From: Brachybacterium sp. EE-P12 | Lineage (GTDB): Bacteria; Actinomycetota; Actinomycetes; Actinomycetales; Dermabacteraceae | Assembly (NCBI RefSeq): GCF_003711805.1 | Contig: NZ_QXCP01000006.1 | Span: 333,047 to 397,046, forward strand | Length of the DNA stretch: 64,000 nucleotides | Reading direction: 5' to 3' | In this document: positions 55,678-64,000 of the stretch, in pieces | How positions within the stretch are numbered: position 1 is the first letter of the stretch | Layout of the letters: the number at the start of each line of letters is the position of its first letter | Translations under genes and position numbers: made by a program | Notes under the pieces: model-generated | Database searches by the model: none | Seen by the model: only the letters and a program-made list of their open reading frames with translations | What the model was told of the DNA's origin: nothing

Positions 55678-55998
55678 TCACGACCCGGCAGGATCAGGGA
55701 GCACCGGACGCATGAACGTGCGCTCATAACGGAGCACGCAGCCGCTGTCGTCTCTGATTCTATCGGCAGCGATGAAGTCGGGGTCGACGCCGAATCGTGC
55801 ACGGTACGCCTCATAGGTTGCGAACGAGTCGAACGAGAACAGTGCCATCGCTCGATCGCTGGCGCCCTCGCTTGGCAGGAAGTATCCGTGATGCATTCCG
55901 TCATGCTTGTTGACCAGTGCCATCCACGCGCGTCCGAACCGCTCGAACTCGGCGGCCTTCGCGGGGTCGATCGTGTATTCCACGACGCAAGTGATCAT
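55678..55998 (-). CDS. NIPSNAP-like small protein
   Basis: 106 residues. MITCVVEYTIDPAKAAEFERF, FGRAWMALVNKHDGMHHGYF and DRAMALFSFDSFATYEAYRA match the NIPSNAP dimeric ferredoxin-like fold found across bacteria. No enzymatic role is proven. It stands between the MFS gene and the first copy of the structured repeat and is transcribed on the minus strand. Nearby genes give no clue to its job. Confidence 0.78.
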   Translation of the reverse strand: MITCVVEYTIDPAKAAEFERFGRAWMALVNKHDGMHHGYFLPSEGASDRAMALFSFDSFATYEAYRARFGVDPDFIAADRIRDDSGCVLRYERTFMRPVLPDPAGS

Positions 55999-56086
55999 GA
56001 CGCCACACTAGAACACGTGCGCCCGGTGGGATGGGACTGCCGAGGCTCCCAGTGGTCTCGCTGACCACACGTATGGCATCCCGAAT

Positions 56087-56211
56087 GGGTATACCCCACG
56101 GCGCAGATCTGTCACGGAACTGCCGTTTTGGACCCTGTGTGACGGGGGAGCCTACGGCGGCGTAGCTGTCACGCAGGGTGGCCCTTAACGGGACAGGACT
56201 GTCCAGTTGAG
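56087..56211 (-). repeat. Structured island repeat, copy A
   Basis: A 125-base noncoding unit 19 bases after the first cis-prenyltransferase stop. Parts, in plus-strand order: palindrome GGGTATACCC (56087-56096); hairpin 56133-56143 with 56168-56178 (11 pairs, one G-T) enclosing a stem CTACG/CGTAG (56152-56156, 56161-56165); terminal palindrome 56184-56196 with 56199-56211 around GGACAG/CTGTCC. Copies B and C keep the same order and spacing. Confidence 0.85.
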
Positions 56212-56230
56212 GTCGCTTACCGCGGGTGCG

Positions 56231-56959
56231 CTACGTTGTCGCCCGGCCGCGCTTGGTGGCGTAGTAGCTGAGCGCATCGTCGAGGTCAGACTCGCTTAAC
56301 GCCGGCCACGGGTGCTGCACGACGTAGAGCTCGGCGCTCTTGGTCTGCCAGGGGAAGAAGCCCGAGGTGCGACTGTCCCCGCCGGTGCGGATGATCAGGT
56401 CGATGTCCTTCACTGGGCCACCGGCAAGCTGCTCCGAGACCGCTTCCACGGTGAGGTCGTCGAGCTCCCCGGTCGCGAGGTGGAGGATGGCGCGCTGAAC
56501 GGCAGAGACGATGTCTGCGTGAGCGTCGTAGCCGATAGCGAGCGTGAGATGCCGGGGCCGATCGGACGTTTCCTGGATCGCGCGCTCGAGCGCTGCTCGG
56601 GCCGAGGCAGGAAGCAGGTCCAGATCGCCACTGACGTGGAGCTGCCAACTCTGAGCCGCCTTCACCCGGTGCGGGATGATCTCCTCGATCAGCCTGAAGA
56701 GGTAGCGGACCTCTTGGGAGTCACGCTTGCGGATGTTGTCGGCGGACAAGACGTAGGCGCTGGCATGGTCGATGCTCCGTGCGCTGAGCCAGGCCATGAA
56801 ATTGGAGAGGTGCTCCGCCCCAGCCTTGTGGCCGAAGCCCACGTCAACATGCCGTTGAGCCTTCGCCCAGCGTCGATTGCCGTCCATGATCACCCCGATG
56901 TGGCGTGGCCGCGGGACGGCCAGAGATGCAGGCCGGCTCGACGCGTCGCGGAGTTCCAT
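56231..56959 (-). CDS. Short cis-prenyltransferase, island copy 1
   Basis: 242 residues. RHIGVIMDGNRRWAKAQRHV carries the catalytic aspartate, SAYVLSADNIRKRDSQEV replaces the housekeeping AYAFSTENW motif, and RTGGDSRTSGFFPWQTKSAE binds diphosphate. The YVLSxDN type is found in short-chain Z-prenyl synthases (for example mycobacterial Z-farnesyl synthase), so a C15 or similar product is inferred. A TACGGT box just before ATG 56959 suggests a leaderless mRNA. A near-copy lies at 58161. Each copy is followed by the structured repeat. It is separate from the chromosomal uppS. Confidence 0.88.
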   Translation of the reverse strand: MELRDASSRPASLAVPRPRHIGVIMDGNRRWAKAQRHVDVGFGHKAGAEHLSNFMAWLSARSIDHASAYVLSADNIRKRDSQEVRYLFRLIEEIIPHRVKAAQSWQLHVSGDLDLLPASARAALERAIQETSDRPRHLTLAIGYDAHADIVSAVQRAILHLATGELDDLTVEAVSEQLAGGPVKDIDLIIRTGGDSRTSGFFPWQTKSAELYVVQHPWPALSESDLDDALSYYATKRGRATT

Positions 56960-57194
56960 GACCTCACCGTAGGACGCACAGCACGCCGGCGACCGGTGTC
57001 CGCAACAGTATCGACAGGATCTCCATCAACGGACGCTTCCAGCATCCCGTCGACGGGGCACCCATCCCGTACGGGTGTCTCACTGGCGCAGCTGTCACTC
57101 ACGGCCAAGGCGTCGGGCGCGGCCTGCTCCCTACCGCCCCACACCCCATCTGCGGTGGCTGAGACGGCTAGCGAGGGGCGGACGCGGCTACCGA

Positions 57195-57223
57195 TTGACT
57201 TTCGATAGATAGCGATTGATACT
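57195..57223 (+). promoter_or_regulatory. Promoter of the DUF2975-HTH pair
   Basis: TTGACT (57195-57200), exactly 17 bases, then GATACT (57218-57223), six bases before ATG 57230. This is the best sigma-70-like promoter in the window and predicts a leaderless transcript. Repeated GATA words (CGATAGATAG, TTGATA) between and over the boxes may be a site for the HTH protein encoded second. Confidence 0.65.
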
Positions 57224-57229
57224 CAACGC

Positions 57230-57706
57230 ATGACTCGTGGCCTCGCTCGAACCCTTCAAGTCGTTGCCGTCCTCTCGGGCCTCGGCCTCCTCTTCGCCCA
57301 AGTCGTGGTCGTGCCGGTGGTCTCCGGGTGGATGGCAGACGCGTACCCGGAGTTCGCTTGGGCACGCTGGCAGCTGGCCATCTCGCTGATCGCCTTCCTG
57401 GCCTGCATCCAAGCCACACTGCTGGCCACATGGGAGCTGCTGGGCCGCGTTGCTCGTGACGAGATTTTCGACGCTGAGGCACGGCGGTGGGTCGATGTCA
57501 TCCTCGGCGCCCTCGGTGCCGGATGGTGCATCGCTCTGGTCACCAGCGCATGGCAGACGATCCAGGGTGTTTCTGCTCCGTGGATCGTCCTGACCGAGTT
57601 GCTCAGTCTGATGGTCGGTCTCGCTGTCGTCCTGCTGATCGTCGTCCTCAGAGGCCTACTCGTCCGAGCGACCGCGCTCAAGGTCGAGATGGATGCGGTT
57701 GTCTGA
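57230..57706 (+). CDS. DUF2975 family membrane protein
   Basis: 158 residues with four hydrophobic segments (LQVVAVLSGLGLLFAQVVVV, LAISLIAFLACIQATLL, ILGALGAGWCIALV, LLSLMVGLAVVLLIVVLRGL). The internal RDEIFDAEARRWVDV motif is the DUF2975 signature. The family is found with YozG-like HTH genes; function is unknown. A consensus-like promoter ends six bases before the ATG. The HTH gene begins 3 bases after the stop. The pair is placed between the two cis-prenyltransferase copies and is transcribed in the opposite direction. Confidence 0.85.
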   Translation: MTRGLARTLQVVAVLSGLGLLFAQVVVVPVVSGWMADAYPEFAWARWQLAISLIAFLACIQATLLATWELLGRVARDEIFDAEARRWVDVILGALGAGWCIALVTSAWQTIQGVSAPWIVLTELLSLMVGLAVVLLIVVLRGLLVRATALKVEMDAVV

Positions 57707-57709
57707 GCG

Positions 57710-57964
57710 ATGGCCATCGTCAGTCGCATTGATGTGGAACTCGCTCGACAGAAGATGAGCGTCGGGGAGTTCGCCGATCGGGTGGGCATCACGCCGGCCA
57801 ACATCGCAGTACTCAAGAACGGTCGCGCCAAGGCCGTCCGCCTGTCGACGCTGGATGCGATGTGCCGCGTGCTCCAATGCCAGCCGGGCGACCTGTTCGA
57901 GTGGATCGACGACGAAACTGAGGACGCAGATGCCGGCGATACCGGCATCAATGACTCCCGGTGA
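57710..57964 (+). CDS. YozG-like XRE helix-turn-helix regulator
   Basis: 84 residues. Cro/C1-type HTH: VELARQKMSVGEFADRVGIT, PANIAVLKNGRAKAVRLSTL, CRVLQCQPGDLFEW. YozG-type proteins accompany DUF2975 membrane proteins and are presumed to repress the pair, perhaps with the membrane partner sequestering the regulator. The acidic C-terminus ends in NDSR. Its 3' end is 52 bases from repeat copy B. Confidence 0.87.
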   Translation: MAIVSRIDVELARQKMSVGEFADRVGITPANIAVLKNGRAKAVRLSTLDAMCRVLQCQPGDLFEWIDDETEDADAGDTGINDSR

Positions 57965-58016
57965 CCAAGAGTCTGGGCGGCGAAGATCCGAGCGGGCCGA
58001 ACGGCGCGTCCTGAAT

Positions 58017-58141
58017 GGGTATACCCGAGTGAGCAGATCTGTGTCAGATTGGCGGTTTTGGACCCTGTGTGACGGGGGAACCTACGGCGGCGTAGCTGTC
58101 GCGCAGGGTGGCCATTAGTGGGACAGAATTGTCCAGTTAAG
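58017..58141 (-). repeat. Structured island repeat, copy B
   Basis: Same length and order as copy A: GGGTATACCC (58017-58026); hairpin arms CCCTGTGTGAC and GTCGCGCAGGG around the unchanged CTACG/CGTAG stem; terminal palindrome around GGACAG/TTGTCC. In the outer stem an A of copy A is G here, changing one T-A pair to T-G without breaking it. It lies 19 bases after the second cis-prenyltransferase stop. Confidence 0.85.
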
Positions 58142-58160
58142 GTCGCTTGCGGCGGGTGCG

Positions 58161-58871
58161 CTACTTTGTCGCCCGGCCGCGCTTGGTGGCGTAGTAGCTG
58201 AGCGCATCGTCGAGGTCGGACTCGCTGAACGCCGGCCACGGGTGCTGCACGACGTAGAGCCCGGCGCTCTTGGTCTGCCAGGGGAAGAAGCCCGAGGTGC
58301 GACTGTCCCCGCCGGTGCGGATGATCAGGTCGATGTCCTTCACTGGGCCACCGGCAAGCTGCTCCGAGACCGCATCCACGGTGAGACCGTCGAGCTCCCC
58401 GGCTTTGAGCTGGAGAACGGCGCGCTGAACGGCAGAGACGATGTCTGCGTGAGCGTCGTAGCCGATAGCGAGCGTGAGATGCCGGGGGCGATCTGACGTC
58501 TCCTGGATCGCGCGCTCGAGCGCTGCTCGTGCCGGGGCAGGAAGCAGGTCCAGATCGCCACTGACGTGTAGCCGCCAACTCTGAGCTGCCTCCACCCGAT
58601 GCGGGATGATCTCCTCGATCAGCGTGAAGAGGTAGCGGACCTCTTGGGAGTCACGCTTGCGGATGTTGTCGGCGGACAGGACGTAGGCGCTGGCGTGGTC
58701 GATGTTCCGGACGCTGAGCCAGGCCATGAAGTTGGAGAGGTGCTCTGCACCGGCCTTGTGGCCGAGGCTCGCGTCAAGGTGCCGTTGAGCCTTCGCCCAG
58801 CGTCGATTGCCGTCCATGATGATCCCGATGTGACGTGGCCTCGGGAGGGCGGAACGGTCGCGGCGATCCAT
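58161..58871 (-). CDS. Short cis-prenyltransferase, island copy 2
   Basis: 236 residues, close paralog of the gene at 56231 with scattered substitutions (for example LDASLGHKAG for VDVGFGHKAG, and QLKAGELDGLTVDAV for HLATGELDDLTVEAV) and a shorter N-terminus. All catalytic motifs are kept (VIMDGNRRW-type IIMDGNRRWAK, YVLSADNI, RTGGDSR). Both copies have CCTACGGTGA or similar just before the ATG, a possible leaderless -10 box. Similarity covers the whole gene and the 3' repeat, so gene and repeat were duplicated together and then diverged under constraint. Confidence 0.88.
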   Translation of the reverse strand: MDRRDRSALPRPRHIGIIMDGNRRWAKAQRHLDASLGHKAGAEHLSNFMAWLSVRNIDHASAYVLSADNIRKRDSQEVRYLFTLIEEIIPHRVEAAQSWRLHVSGDLDLLPAPARAALERAIQETSDRPRHLTLAIGYDAHADIVSAVQRAVLQLKAGELDGLTVDAVSEQLAGGPVKDIDLIIRTGGDSRTSGFFPWQTKSAGLYVVQHPWPAFSESDLDDALSYYATKRGRATK

Positions 58872-58955
58872 GGCGTCACCGTAGGGCTCGACGCGCGCCC
58901 GCGACCGGAGTTCGCCGCGGTGTTGACAAGATCTACACGGACAAGCGCGACTCCG

Positions 58956-59369
58956 TCAGTGCAGCAGTTCGGCACCGAGCGCAGCCCAGGCCGTGGTGTT
59001 CGGTGGAAGGCTCCGGTGGGGGTGCCATTCCACGGCGTTGACTTCGTCGGGCTGGGCTACGCGCGGCTCTCCGAGCACGTCACCCTCGAACAGCAACCGC
59101 ACGACGTGTTGCTGTGAACCGCCGCCGGCCTCGAAGAGTCCGCTGTGGACACCGAGCAGTGCGCCGATGGCCACCTCGCAGCCCGTCTCCTCCCGGACCT
59201 CGCGGACAGCAGCGTCGCGGGGGTGCTCTCCGAATTCCGCCCCGCCGCCTGGCAATGTCCACATCCCGTACGCCGGTCCCGGCGACACCTGGTGCGCCAG
59301 CAGGATCGCCCCATCCCGGCGAGACACGACGTAGGCGCAAACACGGACCGAGCTTCCCAGTTCATCCAT
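58956..59369 (-). CDS. NUDIX hydrolase
   Basis: 137 residues. The Nudix box is complete: GGGAEFGEHPRDAAVREVRE followed by ETG (GX5EX7REUXEEXGU, residues about 42-64). ILLAHQVSPGPAYGMWTLPG precedes it. Such enzymes hydrolyse nucleoside diphosphate-linked compounds, including damaged nucleotides; substrate unknown. An IS21-family element is inserted 53 bases upstream of the ATG and has probably cut off the original promoter. Confidence 0.9.
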   Translation of the reverse strand: MDELGSSVRVCAYVVSRRDGAILLAHQVSPGPAYGMWTLPGGGAEFGEHPRDAAVREVREETGCEVAIGALLGVHSGLFEAGGGSQQHVVRLLFEGDVLGEPRVAQPDEVNAVEWHPHRSLPPNTTAWAALGAELLH

Positions 59370-59482
59370 GCCCCACAGTCTGAACCGCCGGAACGCAGAG
59401 CGGGCGGAGGCGTGTCGCCGCCGGGTGAAAACTGACCCCTATGCGACGGATGAATCTTGACCCCCTGCATCACTCTTGGAGG

Positions 59483-60763
59483 ATGATCGCAGTGGAGGAT
59501 TGGGCAGAGATCCGGCGTTTGCACCGGTCGGAGAAGGTTCCTATCAAGGAGATCGCCAGGCGTCTGGGCATCGCGCGAAACACGGTGCGTTCCGCGTTGG
59601 CGTCCGACGCACCGCCGGAGTATCAGCGGGCGCTCAAGGGCTCGATTGTGGATGCGGTCGAGCCTCAGATCCGAGCGCTGCTCGCTGAGTTCCCGAGGAT
59701 GCCGGCAACGGTGATCGCGGAACGGATCGGGTGGGAGCGCTCACTGACGGTCCTCAAGGAGCGGGTCAGGGAGCTGCGGCCGCTGTTCCTCGAAGCGGAC
59801 CCGGTCGACAAGCTCGTCCATCATCCCGGGCAGACCACGCAGTGTGATCTGTGGTTCCCCGAGCCACGGATCCCGGTCGGTGGCGGCCAGGTCGCGATGC
59901 TGCCGGTGCTGGTGATGACGCTGGCGTTCTCGAAAGTTATCGCAGCCCAGATGATCCCCTCCCGCACTGCCGGCGACATCCTGGCGGGCATGTGGTCGAT
60001 CATCCACTCCCTCGGCGGGGTCACGAAGACTCTGTGGTGGGACCGGGAATCCGCGATCGGCGGCAGAGGACGCCCCTCCCCACCGGCAGCTGCGTTCGCG
60101 GGCACCCTGGGAACCCGGATCGTGCTCGCCCCACCACGGGACCCGGAGACCAAGGGCATGGTCGAGCGGACCAACGGATATCTGGAGACCTCGTTCCTCC
60201 CGGGCAGGGCATTCACCTCGCCCCAGGACTTCAACGCCCAGCTCGGCGACTGGCTGCTGCGCGCGAACCAGCGGATGGTGCGGTCCCTGGCCCCGGCCAC
60301 CGGGTCAGGGGCCGGTGGCCGGCCGGTCGACGTGCTGGGCAGAGACCTTGCAGCGATGACGGTGCTGCCCCCGGTGGCACCGACGACCGGGACCCGGTCC
60401 CGGATCCGGTTGGGCAGGGAGTACTACGTGCGGTTCGAGACCTGCGACTACTCCGTCGACCCCCGCGTGATCGGCAGGTTCGTCGACATCATCGTCTCTC
60501 TCGAGCAGGTCCGGGTCACCTGCGAGGGCAGGGTCGTGGCGCTGCATGAGCGCTGCTGGGCGAAGCGGCAGGTGATCACCGACCCCGAGCACGTCGCGGC
60601 CGCTGCCGTGCTCCGTAGCGCCTATCAGAAGGCCACCAGCAGAGATCGAGGACCCCGGGCCCATGCGGACGGGCACCTCGTGCAGATGCGCGCCCTGCCG
60701 GACTACGACGACCTGTTCGGCATCGACTTCCACGCTCCCGACCACTCGACAAGGACCAGCTGA
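59483..60763 (+). CDS. istA: IS21-family transposase IstA
   Basis: 426 residues from ATG 59483 (TTGGAGG upstream). N-terminal HTH (EIRRLHRSEKVPIKEIARRL, GIARNTVRSAL), then an RNase H-like DDE domain: aspartate in TTQCDLWFPEP, aspartate in LWWDRESAIG, glutamate in ETKGMVERTNGYLETSF. A C-terminal beta domain follows. It cuts and joins DNA with the help of IstB. The stop overlaps the ATG of istB. All catalytic residues are present. Confidence 0.93.
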   Translation: MIAVEDWAEIRRLHRSEKVPIKEIARRLGIARNTVRSALASDAPPEYQRALKGSIVDAVEPQIRALLAEFPRMPATVIAERIGWERSLTVLKERVRELRPLFLEADPVDKLVHHPGQTTQCDLWFPEPRIPVGGGQVAMLPVLVMTLAFSKVIAAQMIPSRTAGDILAGMWSIIHSLGGVTKTLWWDRESAIGGRGRPSPPAAAFAGTLGTRIVLAPPRDPETKGMVERTNGYLETSFLPGRAFTSPQDFNAQLGDWLLRANQRMVRSLAPATGSGAGGRPVDVLGRDLAAMTVLPPVAPTTGTRSRIRLGREYYVRFETCDYSVDPRVIGRFVDIIVSLEQVRVTCEGRVVALHERCWAKRQVITDPEHVAAAAVLRSAYQKATSRDRGPRAHADGHLVQMRALPDYDDLFGIDFHAPDHSTRTS

Positions 60764-61554
60764 TGACCACTACGACCATTCCCGAGAAGGACCCAGGCTC
60801 ACAGATCACCTATCTGGCGAGGGTGTTGAAGACCCCGACGATCACCAGGGTGTTCGAGGACCTCGCCGAGACCGCTCGTGACCAGGCCTGGAGCCACGAG
60901 GAGTACCTCGCCGCGGTCCTGGCCCGGCAGGTCGCCGAGCGCGAGGAGTCCGGAGCTCGGATCCGGATCGGCGGCGCGCACTTCCCGCAACTGAAGACGC
61001 TGGAGGACTTCACGATGGACCACCAGCCCTCGCTCCGCCGGGACATCCTCGCGCACCTCGCGACCTGCACGTTCATCCCCAAGGCCGAGAACGTAGTGCT
61101 CCTGGGGCCACCCGGGGTGGGCAAGACCCACCTCGCGATCGGTCTGGGACTGAAGGCCGCGCACGCGGGCTATCCGGTCTTGTTCGACACCGCGACCGGA
61201 TGGCTCGCCCGCCTCCAACAGGCCCACGCGACCGATGGCCTGGACAAGGAGCTGAAGAAGCTGCGGCGCTACAAGCTGTTGATCATCGACGAGATCGGCT
61301 ACATCCCCTTCGACGCGACCGCAGCGAACCTGTTCTTCCAACTCATCGCCGCCCGTTACGAGCAGGGCTCGCTGCTGGTCACCTCGAACATGCCGTTCGG
61401 GAGATGGGGCGAGATCTTCGGCGACGACATCGTCGCAGCCGCCATGATCGACCGCCTCGTCCACCACGCCGAGGTCCTCACCCTCTCCGGCGACTCCTAC
61501 CGCACCCGAGCCCGCCGCGAGCTCCTGAAGACGACCACAACCAACACGAAGTAG
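60763..61554 (+). CDS. istB: IS21-family helper ATPase IstB
   Basis: 263 residues, coupled to istA by one-base overlap. AAA+ motifs: Walker A GPPGVGKTHLAIGLG near residue 112, Walker B LLIIDEIGYIPF, and the C-terminal arginine-rich RTRARRELLK. IstB forms oligomers on DNA, chooses targets and activates IstA. Intact length suggests that the element can still move. Confidence 0.94.
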   Translation: MTTTTIPEKDPGSQITYLARVLKTPTITRVFEDLAETARDQAWSHEEYLAAVLARQVAEREESGARIRIGGAHFPQLKTLEDFTMDHQPSLRRDILAHLATCTFIPKAENVVLLGPPGVGKTHLAIGLGLKAAHAGYPVLFDTATGWLARLQQAHATDGLDKELKKLRRYKLLIIDEIGYIPFDATAANLFFQLIAARYEQGSLLVTSNMPFGRWGEIFGDDIVAAAMIDRLVHHAEVLTLSGDSYRTRARRELLKTTTTNTK

Positions 61555-61682
61555 ACAAACACCACCCCGACAGAGGGGTCAAAATTCAGCCGTCGATAAG
61601 GGGTCAATTTTCACCCGCCGTTGACAGAGGCGAGGCGTGCGAGCATTCCGCCCATCAGCCCCTGAGTCACGGAGGTTCGTGC

Positions 61683-61997
61683 ATGAGTGCCCCCAACCGG
61701 CCCAGAGTGGTCTGCCTATGCGGTTCGCTGCGCTTCCAGAGCCTGTTCGAGTCGGAGCGGCGCCGTCTCACTACCCTCGGGATGATCGTGCTCGCGCCCG
61801 AAGCAAGCAATGGAGACCTGACCCCAGCCCGACGTGAAGCTCTGGGCGAGCTGCATCTACGTCGTATCGACCTGTCGGACGAGGTGCGAGTGGTGAGCGA
61901 AGGCGGATACCTCGGATCGGCAACACAGCGTGAAATCGCGTACGCGCGAGAGAGGGGCAAGGGCATCAGCTCAGTGGACCCAACTCTCCACCTCTGA
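61683..61997 (+). CDS. Nucleoside 2-deoxyribosyltransferase-like protein
   Basis: 104 residues with GGAGG six bases upstream. VVCLCGSLRFQSLFESERRR, GMIVLAPE and the SDEVRVVSEGGYLGSATQRE, then IAYARERGK, are the nucleotide-binding pattern of the nucleoside 2-deoxyribosyltransferase-like fold (also DUF4406). The serine of GS and the glutamate of RE fit the active site. It may process modified nucleotides; the activity is unproven. The IS21 element ends 65 bases upstream, so its promoter may be new or lost. Confidence 0.78.
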   Translation: MSAPNRPRVVCLCGSLRFQSLFESERRRLTTLGMIVLAPEASNGDLTPARREALGELHLRRIDLSDEVRVVSEGGYLGSATQREIAYARERGKGISSVDPTLHL

Positions 61998-62037
61998 TGC
62001 CGTCAGCCTGCCTCCGTTTTGTCCCCGGCCGAGCTGC

Positions 62038-62051
62038 GCCATAAACGGTCG
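62038..62051 (+). repeat. 14-bp direct repeat, copy 1, after the ParB-like gene
   Basis: GCCATAAACGGTCG just beyond the stop of the minus-strand ParB-like gene. The same 14 bases recur at 62434-62447, before its start. Confidence 0.8.
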
Positions 62052-62059
62052 GTGATGGG

Positions 62060-62407
62060 TCAGGCCTCTCTGGCCTCCCATGCGGCGATGAGCACCCGAT
62101 GATCCGCATCGGCCATCGGCTTTGCGTGGCCAGGTCTCGGATGCTCGGGCAGCTGATGGAGCGTCACCGGAACGTGCTCTAAGCCGAGGCGCAGAGCCAC
62201 GGCGATTCTGTGGTTCCCGTCGACGGTTGCAAACGCCTGATTGAACCTGAGATCGAGCGGCACGAGGATGCCGCGCTGACCGATGTCAGATGTGAGGCGG
62301 TCGAGATGTGCGGGTGTGTCTACCAGTGCTGAACCGACGACCTCGCGGTCCACGGCTCGGTACCGAGCCACCAGGTCGGTGGGGAGCTGGACGGCGGCGC
62401 TTCGCAT
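62060..62407 (-). CDS. ParB-like domain protein
   Basis: 115 residues from ATG 62407 (a longer frame to 62521 would run through the flanking repeat). HLDRLTSDIGQRGILVPLDL, then FNQAFATVDGNHRIAVALRL and GLEHVPVTLHQL, resemble the ParB/sulfiredoxin-like N-terminal domain, which binds nucleotide through the GNHR motif. No DNA-binding HTH follows, so a partitioning role is unlikely; stand-alone copies act as nucleases, kinases or unknown. The gene is flanked by exact 14-bp direct repeats. Confidence 0.7.
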   Translation of the reverse strand: MRSAAVQLPTDLVARYRAVDREVVGSALVDTPAHLDRLTSDIGQRGILVPLDLRFNQAFATVDGNHRIAVALRLGLEHVPVTLHQLPEHPRPGHAKPMADADHRVLIAAWEAREA

Positions 62408-62433
62408 CGCGTGAGCGTACCCAGCGAGCCTGT

Positions 62434-62447
62434 GCCATAAACGGTCG
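62434..62447 (+). repeat. 14-bp direct repeat, copy 2, before the ParB-like gene
   Basis: GCCATAAACGGTCG again. Here it is part of a longer imperfect palindrome, 62432-62457, with arms GTGCC..AAACG and CGTTT..GGCAC around GT. The first copy keeps only the left arm. Confidence 0.78.
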
Positions 62448-62562
62448 TTTCCGGCACAGTCGGCCAAGGCGATGTGGAGCGGTGCCGTAAATGTAGGGCG
62501 GGTCGAGAACCGTTGCGGCACGGCTACGCTCCGGTCCTGAACTTCGGCACAACTAAGCCGGC

Positions 62563-63279
62563 TCAGGTCCAGGTGCTTGTTTGCTCGACGCGGAACCGGA
62601 CGAAGTCGACGGGTGACTCCGGCTGGATCGCGGGGTAGTGGCCGCGAAGCCCGTTCTGTAGGTCCGCGGCGACCATGCCGCCCTCCTGCTCCGCATCCTC
62701 ATCGGTGAGCTGATCAAGCCTCTTCGACTCGACGGATTCGATGACACCGCGGAGGCGCTTATATCCTTCATCAAACTCGAAGAGCAGCCACGCGGGACCC
62801 ACCGCGCAGGGGTCATCGAATCGGGTGGTCGCCGTCTTGCTGCCGTCGAGCACCGCGTCGTAGTAGCGCGGGTTGAATCGAACGACCCGCTCGGGCGCCG
62901 CTTCCGGGGAGTTGTACGCGTGCGGCAACAGCTTCCGCACCGGCACCAGATCCGGCTCGCCGTCACCCGGGACGATCACCAAGCAGTCGGGATGCTGGTC
63001 AAGGAGTACTTGGCGGCATCGGCCGCACGGGGCGATCACCCCGCGACCGCGGTCGCCCACGGCCACCATCGTGACGAGCGGGCCCGCGGCGGCGGCCTGA
63101 CCGAGCACGACGAGCTCGGCGCATGGGCCGCCGGTGAAGTGGAAGACGTTGACTCCGGCGTAGATGCGCCCCGCAGTGTCCATTGAGGCAGCTGCGACCG
63201 TGTGGTTCGAGTCGCCGGGAAGGAGGTCGAGCTGCCTGAGGGCCGCATCTAAAACTCGCTGCTGAGGTGGGTAAAGCAT
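62563..63279 (-). CDS. Cytidine deaminase fused to an ASCH domain
   Basis: 238 residues from ATG 63279. The N-terminal half has the deaminase zinc site: CAE in GGPCAELVVLGQA and PCGRC in APCGRCRQVLLDQHPD, of blasticidin deaminase/CDA type. The C-terminal half (RFNPRYYDAVLDGSKTATTR, then WLLFEFDEGYKRLRGVIESV) is an ASCH domain, an RNA- or nucleoside-binding fold that includes the N4-acetylcytidine amidohydrolase YqfB. The fusion suggests a two-step action on modified cytidines, an inference. The gene begins 59 bases after repeat copy C. Confidence 0.83.
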   Translation of the reverse strand: MLYPPQQRVLDAALRQLDLLPGDSNHTVAAASMDTAGRIYAGVNVFHFTGGPCAELVVLGQAAAAGPLVTMVAVGDRGRGVIAPCGRCRQVLLDQHPDCLVIVPGDGEPDLVPVRKLLPHAYNSPEAAPERVVRFNPRYYDAVLDGSKTATTRFDDPCAVGPAWLLFEFDEGYKRLRGVIESVESKRLDQLTDEDAEQEGGMVAADLQNGLRGHYPAIQPESPVDFVRFRVEQTSTWT

Positions 63280-63337
63280 GGCCCGAGTATCGCACTGGCC
63301 TTCAACAGTATTTGCGGCACCGAGGTTCCGTAACGCT

Positions 63338-63463
63338 GGGATATACCCCACGGCGCAGATGTGTCACGGAAGTGCCGATTCGGACCCTGTGGGACGGGGG
63401 AGGCTACGGTGCCGTAGCTGTCTCGCAGGGTGATGCTTAACGCGACAGAAGTGTGCAGTTGAG
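63338..63463 (-). repeat. Structured island repeat, copy C
   Basis: 126 bases, one base longer in the first palindrome (GGGATATACCC). The hairpin arms CCCTGTGGGAC and GTCTCGCAGGG still pair at all 11 positions counting two G-T pairs, around CTACG/CGTAG; loop differs (GTGC). The terminal palindrome is weaker (CGACAG/GTGTGC). It follows the phosphotransferase stop by 34 bases and is unrelated to prenyltransferase genes here. Confidence 0.8.
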
Positions 63464-63497
63464 GTTAGAGGAGCGTCCTAGCGCGGGGTGACGGGTC

Positions 63498-64000
63498 TTA
63501 CGGTCGCACTGCCCTGAGCTCGCGCCGCCATCTGCCTGGCCAACCATCGCGGACCCACGATGCGTGCGGTTCGTGATGGTGAGAGCCGAGCCACTCGACC
63601 TCTTCGATGGCTTGCTCGTGGCGCGCAGTCGCACGCTCCGCGACCTCGAAGGGGTCTTCCCAGCCGTAGCCCTCCAGTAGGGCGGCGGCGCGGGCATCGG
63701 CCTCGCGCCGATCGGTGGCACTAAGTTCGGGTATCGGGCGGATCGGAACAGGCACGGTCCATAGGAGGGCGTACGCGATGTCGCTGGCGGGGTCAGCGGG
63801 TCGTGCCGCGTCCCAGTCGAATAGTCCTACGGCGCGACCATCCAGCCAGGCGAAGTTCCCGGGTTTTGGGTCACCGTGGCACACCGTGATCGACGACGTG
63901 TGCGGAACGGACCAGCAGGCTTCTGTTGGTGGTGAATCGCCCCGGGTCTGGTGGAGGCTCTGAATCCACGGGAGGATGAGGAGCATGGCAGCACCGAGGA
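63498..64000 (-). CDS. Aminoglycoside phosphotransferase-like protein, C-terminal part
   Basis: The minus-strand frame is open through the right edge (in-frame codons before ATG 63986 have no stop), so the 5' end is outside. VCHGDPKPGNFAWLDGRAVG contains the catalytic HGD...N motif, and LFDWDAARPADPASDIAYAL the second metal-binding aspartate of the APH/choline kinase fold. Usual substrates are aminoglycosides or small alcohols; nothing here decides. The product ends with a basic tail LRAVRP. Repeat copy C follows the stop. Confidence 0.85.
   Translation of the reverse strand, partial: LGAAMLLILPWIQSLHQTRGDSPPTEACWSVPHTSSITVCHGDPKPGNFAWLDGRAVGLFDWDAARPADPASDIAYALLWTVPVPIRPIPELSATDRREADARAAALLEGYGWEDPFEVAERATARHEQAIEEVEWLGSHHHEPHASWVRDGWPGRWRRELRAVRP

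Follow-up and report, generated by a model that had tools for sequence, protein, structure and literature searches.

We describe here a repeated element, hereafter E, and the genes that it separates in a 64,000-nucleotide stretch of DNA from Brachybacterium sp. EE-P12 (contig NZ_QXCP01000006.1; the window). Three copies are present on the + strand, namely A (56077..56213), B (58007..58143) and C (63329..63465). The copies are ~137 bases long each, have an identical order and spacing of parts and, aligned together with their flanks, show a mean column identity of 82%, which confirms the three copies of common layout reported in a preliminary description of this DNA, although the conserved unit begins ~10 bases to the left of the start given there. 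A search of the genome itself with the element as query returned exactly these three copies (best E-value 1.5e-64). Measured from the redrawn ends, the gaps to the ends of the minus-strand open reading frames (ORFs) at 56231, 58161 and 63498 are 17, 17 and 32 bases, respectively, in agreement with the 19-34 bases past minus-strand stop codons reported before. The contig (C17) stops at window base 64000, 535 bases past copy C. Genomes, contigs and loci are referred to below, where needed, by our G, C and L numbers.

Each element opens with a crossover-type dyad, S1, and the extents of cassettes A and B were inferred from the S1 centres. Cassette A (56092..58021; 1,930 bp) consists of the element, an undecaprenyl diphosphate synthase-type prenyltransferase gene 3' of which the element lies (56231..56959, - strand; PF01255, 6e-52), a gene for a DUF2975 protein (57230..57706, +; PF11188, 4e-24) and one for a Cro/C1-type HTH regulator (57710..57964, +; PF13443), the region of which is homologous to locus L113, where it adjoins an element of a second type (type II, see below). 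Cassette B (58022..63343; 5,322 bp) contains the element, a second prenyltransferase gene (58161..58871, -), identified by nucleotide homology to the A unit (88.7% across 950 bp), a NUDIX hydrolase gene (58956..59369, -; PF00293), an ORF pair (59441..61554, +) that, from its sequence, we take to be istA/istB of an IS21-like insertion, two ORFs without Pfam match and a gene for a cytidine-deaminase-like and ASCH protein (62563..63351, -; PF04266, 7e-9; PF00383, 6.8e-5, below cut-off). The longest ORF of the latter, the start of which is provisional, runs into S1 of C. Cassette C (63344..64000), cut by the contig end, holds the element and the gene of an APH-family phosphotransferase without its 5' end (63498..63998, -; PF01636), and a NIPSNAP-domain gene (55678..55998, -; PF07978) lies to the left of S1 of A. 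The neighbours named previously, two cis-prenyltransferases and a phosphotransferase, are therefore upheld, by Pfam for A and C and by homology to A for B.

E is made of copies of one half-site, approximately CTGTCnCGCnGGGGT, arranged as inverted pairs. The order is S1, a 30-bp dyad with GGGGTATACCCC at its centre, then a site-II-like dyad 3 bp further on, a 20-bp spacer and a site-III-like dyad, so that in the window copies three subsites of 30, 36 and 31 bp with TGTC-type outer ends follow one another. In A, S1 occupies 56077..56106 (+; score 22.0 with a position weight matrix; centre between 56091 and 56092), and is followed by the site-II-like dyad (56110..56145, +; 36 bp, TGTC...GACGG), whose half-site resembles that of res, the recombination site of resolvases, by the spacer (56146..56165, +; 20 bp), in which a CTACG/CGTAG palindrome had been read as the inner stem of a hairpin, and by the site-III-like dyad (56166..56196, +; 31 bp), which overlaps a terminal palindrome (56184..56211, +) previously likened to the core of an integron attC site. 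The corresponding positions are 58007-58036, 58040-58075 and 58096-58126 in B and 63329-63358 (centre GGATATACCC), 63362-63397 and 63418-63448 in C. The matrix for S1, trained on 52 element-linked sites and hence independent mainly for resolvase-linked sites, found 68 sites in 897,505 bases (51 loci), and the reversed control gave none at a score of at least 9. Two types of E, I (E1) and II (E2), were distinguished, with members ~80% alike within a type; the window copies are type I. According to PMC12217951 and PMC7157771, a Tn3-type res site consists of three subsites of inverted 12-bp binding sites, and cleavage takes place at the 2 bp in the centre of site I. Judged from its sequence, E is built to the plan of such a site, rearranged, and the hairpins of the preliminary description are the subsite dyads.

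Weak element-like matches were seen directly upstream of serine resolvase genes. A resolvase search gave matches in 17 of the 38 genomes of the genus at E-values of at most 1e-20, and the genes, located by tblastn, include a clade of 11 distinct genes that are 51% or more identical to the query. Two clade members were scanned and contain PF00239 and HTH_7, and the resolvase aligns over its length with the solved Tn552/Sin, Tn3 and gamma-delta resolvases. An S1 (score of at least 11.5, within 700 bp upstream) precedes ten of the 11 genes, at 85-109 bp from the start in eight and at 297 and 326 bp in two; the 11th is a pseudogene in G022, where the site accompanying the gene (hereafter R) is 719 bp away. 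Among 12 other resolvases of the genus, at 34-46% identity, none had an S1 of that score upstream (one reached 9.1, and the upstream stretch was short in L146), while outside the genus, in the rest of the order, four of 24 resolvase loci at 43-52% identity had one, 604 bp away in one case. Strong S1 sites lie 108 and 84 bp upstream of the resolvases of L187 and L188, from other families of the order. A scan of viral contigs with the resolvase query yielded 15 relatives.

In R, the order is resolvase gene, site III, site II, spacer and S1. Site III thus stands next to the gene with the crossover-type site distal, whereas E shows the reverse order and lacks a resolvase gene. The alignment of E2 with R covers site II, the spacer and a half-site, S1 being moved to the site III end, and the R profile matches E2 at about positions 45-126. 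The clade falls into subclades with 49-59% identity between them and 75-81% and 87-93% within, the resolvase of the Brachybacterium avium plasmid standing apart (64-66% to the second subclade). A site II half, CCCTATTGGGAACCG, is common to E2 and to the R of one subclade; in the other subclade, R agrees with the E1 half-site CCCTGTGGGACGG at 9-10 of 13 positions. Since cassettes of both E types were found with both kinds of R, the matching of site types is not strict. The resolvase beside R is intact in G032 and G033:C5 and broken or a fragment in G011, G015 and G022, and none was seen with other R. On the B. avium plasmid contig (G022:C3; L161 18356-18445), ARAGORN predicts a tRNA gene (tRNA-Ile, gat) four bases from site I of R.

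The halves of 400 bases on either side of each S1 centre were compared between sites, and in several pairs the neighbours change at this point. The right halves are alike and the left ones unlike in window A/B (91%), L039 2562/4786 (100%), L047 11219/L112 8062 (92%; on the left, one has a cassette end and the other a resolvase R), L047 18590/L160 4718 (87%, both R) and L051 141/L113 11991 (99.4% over 155 bp), and the reverse is seen in L113 2604/window 58007 (88%; type II versus type I) and L039 4786/L113 11991 (98%). The other pairs compared were alike on both sides, were split by an insertion sequence (IS) or transposon, or were resolvase sites among themselves. As an example of a long match, L033 and L114 (G016 and G024) share 2,140 bp at 99.95%, a match that breaks off at GTATACC, halfway through S1, and beyond which the two have nothing alike. 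When all loci are taken together, there are 186 interior alignment ends, of which 17 fall within 30 bp of an S1, against 0.85 expected if they were uniform, a count that includes both directions of each pair and some IS and transposon ends and comes from loci chosen for their elements. The crossover position at the S1 centre was inferred from such breakpoints. In addition, L039 11953-12176 (G027:C27, near 112,034) has a type II (-) and a type I (+) element head to head on one S1, as would be expected if the near-symmetric centre recombines in the other orientation. In two related species, the flanks of L042 4988-9096 and L049 8094-8684 are common, but what separates a worn R from the element differs, with 4.1 kb and four Pfam-matched genes in the former and 0.6 kb in the latter. 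The outer cassette ends at L114 9810 and L241 2874 join at GTAYAC to DNA without a left half-site, which may reflect insertion at a secondary site or later loss of the half-site. A miniature inverted-repeat transposable element or an ERIC-like repeat was considered for the 127-bp length and dropped, because homology breaks one-sidedly and at one point.

A further case comes from plasmids. With the fused R and E2 site of G032 as query, three plasmid records were retrieved, from Corynebacterium kefirresidentii, C. diphtheriae and Winkia neuii. The C. kefirresidentii and W. neuii plasmids both carry an E2, a TetR-type regulator, an MFS transporter, a small ORF and a resolvase, and between their GTACACCC centres the cassette is identical at 2425 of 2435 positions (99.6%, 2.43 kb). 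The two middle bases of S1 are AC in the Corynebacterium and Winkia sites and AT in most of those from Brachybacterium. Directly to its left, only 59 of 161 columns are identical (37%), and to its right the R stretch is at 86/119 (72%), followed by an ORF and the resolvase at 751/851. Identity thus drops at both S1 centres, so that the S1-to-S1 unit is far more alike than its two platforms. In C. diphtheriae plasmid CP103906.1, the search listing places the cassette, 98.6% identical, at three positions in the record, and the element match begins at most 4 bases from the S1 centre.

The orientation of the elements relative to R was assessed with E1, E2 and R profiles on contigs that have a separate R and E within 20 kb. 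On all nine such contigs (G011, G014, G015, G017, G028:C14, G029:C12, G033:C5, G035 and G037:C526) and for all 17 E, S1 is on the side away from R, giving the order R, gene-E, gene-E; this count excludes G031:C18, where the R-like match is partial. R and E sit on one common S1 in G022, G032 (with an intact resolvase) and G034. Since the window elements are on the + strand, R would, by the polarity rule, lie to the right, where the contig ends.

The cargo is diverse. Among 39 proteins scanned in or beside cassettes, 30 had a Pfam match and nine had none, and the families comprise prenyltransferase, DUF2975, HTH, NUDIX (3), ASCH/deaminase, APH (2), GNAT (4), AAA_33, FAD-binding, MarR, GntR (2), LysE, glyoxalase, MFS, HAD, methyltransferase (2), HIT, DUF218, erythromycin-esterase family, MerR, NIPSNAP and DUF4062 members. 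Third-position GC content is mostly ~0.7-0.8 in cassette genes and often 0.85-0.97 in the flanking chromosomal ones. Around full elements, a simple and noisy ORF caller counted ORFs pointing toward E, away from it or none as 14, 7 and 1 for type I and 7, 9 and 2 for type II, and the Pfam-checked genes (see below) were relied on for direction instead.

Relatives of type I occur in 19 of the 38 genus genomes (the window's own included) and in one other, that is 20 of the 198 genomes searched, and type II matches in 16 of the 38. At least one E, in some cases partial only (G021), was found in 22 of the 38, once matches recognised as resolvase res sites had been removed (in G020 and, for type II, in G035). 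In an order-wide sample of 396 genomes, type I was present in 19 and type II in 15, nearly all of them Brachybacterium; outside the genus, only G045, from the same family, and G127, from elsewhere in the order, gave strong matches, and weak ones were seen in four more outside the genus and in G026 and G036 within it. A pattern scan of named genomes returned 30 stretches, many in unrelated phyla, as chance predicts. The E profiles back those of five Brachybacterium records and one Actinomycetes metagenome-assembled genome (L084), and all others stayed at or below 18.3 bits or, like the two from Kocuria, produced no row. Plasmid searches with element A and with the element of a phage scaffold gave no match either time. 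That scaffold, filed as a human-faeces phage (MT835720.1; L242 7987-8136), carries a type I element, with a second S1 at a distance of 1.8 kb.

Taken on sequence evidence, these observations make it probable that E elements are res-like sites that end exchangeable cassettes and that a Tn3-type serine resolvase inserts and removes the cassettes, cutting at the S1 centre. The resolvase is encoded beside its own matching site R in relatives and would bind E as well. Recombination between S1 of a cassette circle and S1 of R would insert a cassette, recombination between the S1 sites of neighbours would remove one, and the reordered accessory sites might favour insertion. Both cassette orientations would be possible, because the S1 centre is nearly symmetric. 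In the window's own assembly, no R (best match at an E-value of 0.26) and no resolvase above 39% identity to the clade query were found, and the window array would thus be orphan or unfinished. The cassette idea, raised in the preliminary description, gains support from the unrelated genes, the switching of neighbours at one point of the element and the integron-like polarity, and it survived the check on relatives, in which copies could have turned out to accompany the prenyltransferase and phosphotransferase lineages only.

Several observations weigh against this interpretation. Of the 22 genus genomes with an E, 14 have no clade resolvase, the window's own among them, and the accessory sites of E are in reversed order relative to S1. 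Resolvases generally favour deletion over integration. In the polarity count, R is weak or partial in three cases (G014, 36 bits; G017, 28; G037, 25, cut by the contig end), the three fusions of R and E (G022, G032 and G034) have the opposite cassette orientation, and the E of G032 that lie 22-29 kb from R are of mixed orientation. Pfam-checked right-hand neighbours point toward E in ten cases and away in four, so direction is a bias and not a rule. Furthermore, the switch in L039_4786/L113_11991 lies a few bases to the left of the S1 centre, and the left partners in L114 and L241 lack the left half-site. The C. kefirresidentii and W. neuii plasmids also have in common a 1.3-kb block (99.8% identity, ~1.7 kb left of the cassette) and the same replicon cluster, which indicates mosaics of related plasmids and not strangers.

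A different explanation would be that the elements are plain res remnants of integrated plasmids or of lost Tn3-like transposons, with incidental gene neighbours. R and the resolvase do occur on plasmids such as that of B. avium, the Corynebacterium and Winkia plasmids have a common backbone, and toxin-antitoxin modules of the Tn3 family are exchanged at res site I according to PMC7157771. We nevertheless regard this as unlikely, as the subsite order of E is unlike that of R and no resolvase gene goes with it, E is repeated in one polarity with genes between the copies, and the discrete plasmid cassette is far more alike than the platforms that carry it.

Still less favoured, and in our view improbable, is that the elements are dispersed repeats at whose short homology ordinary homologous recombination reshuffles genes. 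The likeness within a type would provide that homology, one element pair in G027 is a 575-bp near-identical duplication, and a clade resolvase is absent from 14 of the 22 genomes with E. However, the switches stop at S1 and are not spread throughout the element, types I and II swap left partners despite differing to the right of S1 (window B/L113), the left partners in L241 and L114 have no homology to the left of GTAYAC, and the polarity toward R would be left unexplained.

The likeness to attC was examined through the integrase. No protein of the 38 genus genomes exceeded the cut-off of the IntI model (TIGR02249), the best reaching ~82 bits, with all 14 control genomes similarly below cut-off, and a scan for tyrosine recombinase motifs, by regular expression only, found none in 41 loci. 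Despite the integron-like layout and cassette content and the resemblance of GTTGAG/CTTAAC to the attC core, diverged attC sites moved by a tyrosine integrase were thus rejected on the IntI result and are hardly credible, the element being composed of serine-resolvase-type subsites like those of the clade res. By eye, a better reading takes the supposed core for the site-III-like dyad's right arm together with one more half-site.

The other early suggestion was a role as terminators or small structured RNAs 3' of genes, with selection on the folded form argued from an outer-stem pair that was T-A, T-G and G-T in the three copies. In the two helices proposed, 91% of type I cells pair, against at most 46% when the helices are slid; the pairing itself is real, but it is equally expected of inverted DNA sites. 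The pair cited (alignment pair 56/87) is unformed in 11 of 25 members (26 of type I, 25 with letters there), so the covariation did not generalise. In 500 shuffles, the number of double-change pairs in these helices was reached in 418, the covariation score in 57, the double-change cell number in 27 and the share of paired cells in 22, and support for folding is weak at best. By alifold, the covariation term is -0.13 in type I and +0.31 in type II, and the two types are predicted to fold differently. The case for selection on a fold has therefore lost ground with more members. An Rfam search of the window gave no match, and the structured RNA or terminator was rejected on this and on the weak alifold and pair-count support. 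Hairpins that can form and the many type I copies directly 3' of a gene notwithstanding, an RNA role is very improbable for an element with covariation near shuffle level, a type II that folds otherwise and an S1 that is present beside resolvase genes and at recombination ends.

The components of the proposed system are of known kinds. Integrons, the textbook gene-cassette system, rest on one tyrosine integrase family, and the arrays described here resemble them, in likeness and not in membership, by a platform site, cassettes in which every gene comes with its site, a single polarity, orphan arrays and a mixed content of small genes (NUDIX, GNAT, HIT, methyltransferase, APH). They would differ by a serine resolvase in place of the tyrosine IntI and by a double-strand dyad site, and a common attC fold appears to be lacking; insertions in both orientations are seen. 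An attC site is an imperfect hairpin with R and L boxes that recombines as a folded single strand; in E, the boxes were judged by eye, and types I and II predict different folds, with covariation near shuffle level. Similarly, in the pdif modules of Acinetobacter plasmids (XerC/XerD), genes lie between recombination sites and are thought to be mobile. Those sites are 28-bp Xer sites used by host tyrosine recombinases, and they are not known to have a platform with polarity. With the res systems of Tn3, gamma-delta, Tn552 and Sin, the small serine resolvase (PF00239, HTH_7) and the three-dyad site are shared, and the placing of site III beside the gene with the crossover-type site distal agrees with the Tn3-type res of PMC7157771 and PMC12217951. 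Unlike them, E is solitary and without a resolvase gene, has its crossover dyad at the site III end and stands in gene-separated arrays. The swapping of neighbouring gene modules at res site I in the Tn3 family is similar too, but takes place within transposons with tnpA, and the accessible part of PMC7157771 describes no arrays of solitary sites. Among the proteins scanned here, no Tn3 tnpA turned up.

A literature search among open-licence PMC papers found no description of a serine-resolvase cassette array. The resolvase and res belong to known kinds, and it is the array system that, within the scope of this search, appears new. We consider it fairly likely that it represents a second, independent invention of the integron principle, in which actinobacteria would collect, stack and exchange cassettes by means of a plasmid-type serine resolvase, with R as platform and res-derived E, at least two resolvase subclades with matching site types, and cassettes that cross orders on plasmids. 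If so, the capture of cassettes would have more than one evolutionary origin, and the islands of lower third-position GC in Brachybacterium would be explained; the way in which reordered accessory sites might adapt a resolvase to capturing genes would become open to experiment. S1, E and R would also provide a short searchable signature for cassettes in actinobacterial genomes and plasmids, including the MFS-transporter cassette of two orders.

Finally, some elements are themselves entered by transposons of the TniA type (Mu-type DDE transposase and resolvase). A genus-wide search for the ends of such transposons found 17 in eight of the 38 genomes, with two matches for the reversed-pattern control. 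By profile, four of these ends (three transposons) are inside E, two more have an S1-like GGGTATACCCC no further than ~75 bp away and score weakly by profile, and 11 have neither. Tn5053-family transposons are described as res-site hunters in PMC7765201, and the taste of the transposons for E therefore fits a resolvase site. The visitors resemble the Tn5053/Tn402 hunters in pairing a TniA-type DDE transposase with a resolvase and in entering E, but are guests of E and not the cassette system. In L033 (12699-16868), a 4.2-kb transposon with a DDE transposase, a resolvase and a cadmium-transporter-family gene, and with no clear target duplication, splits one element.

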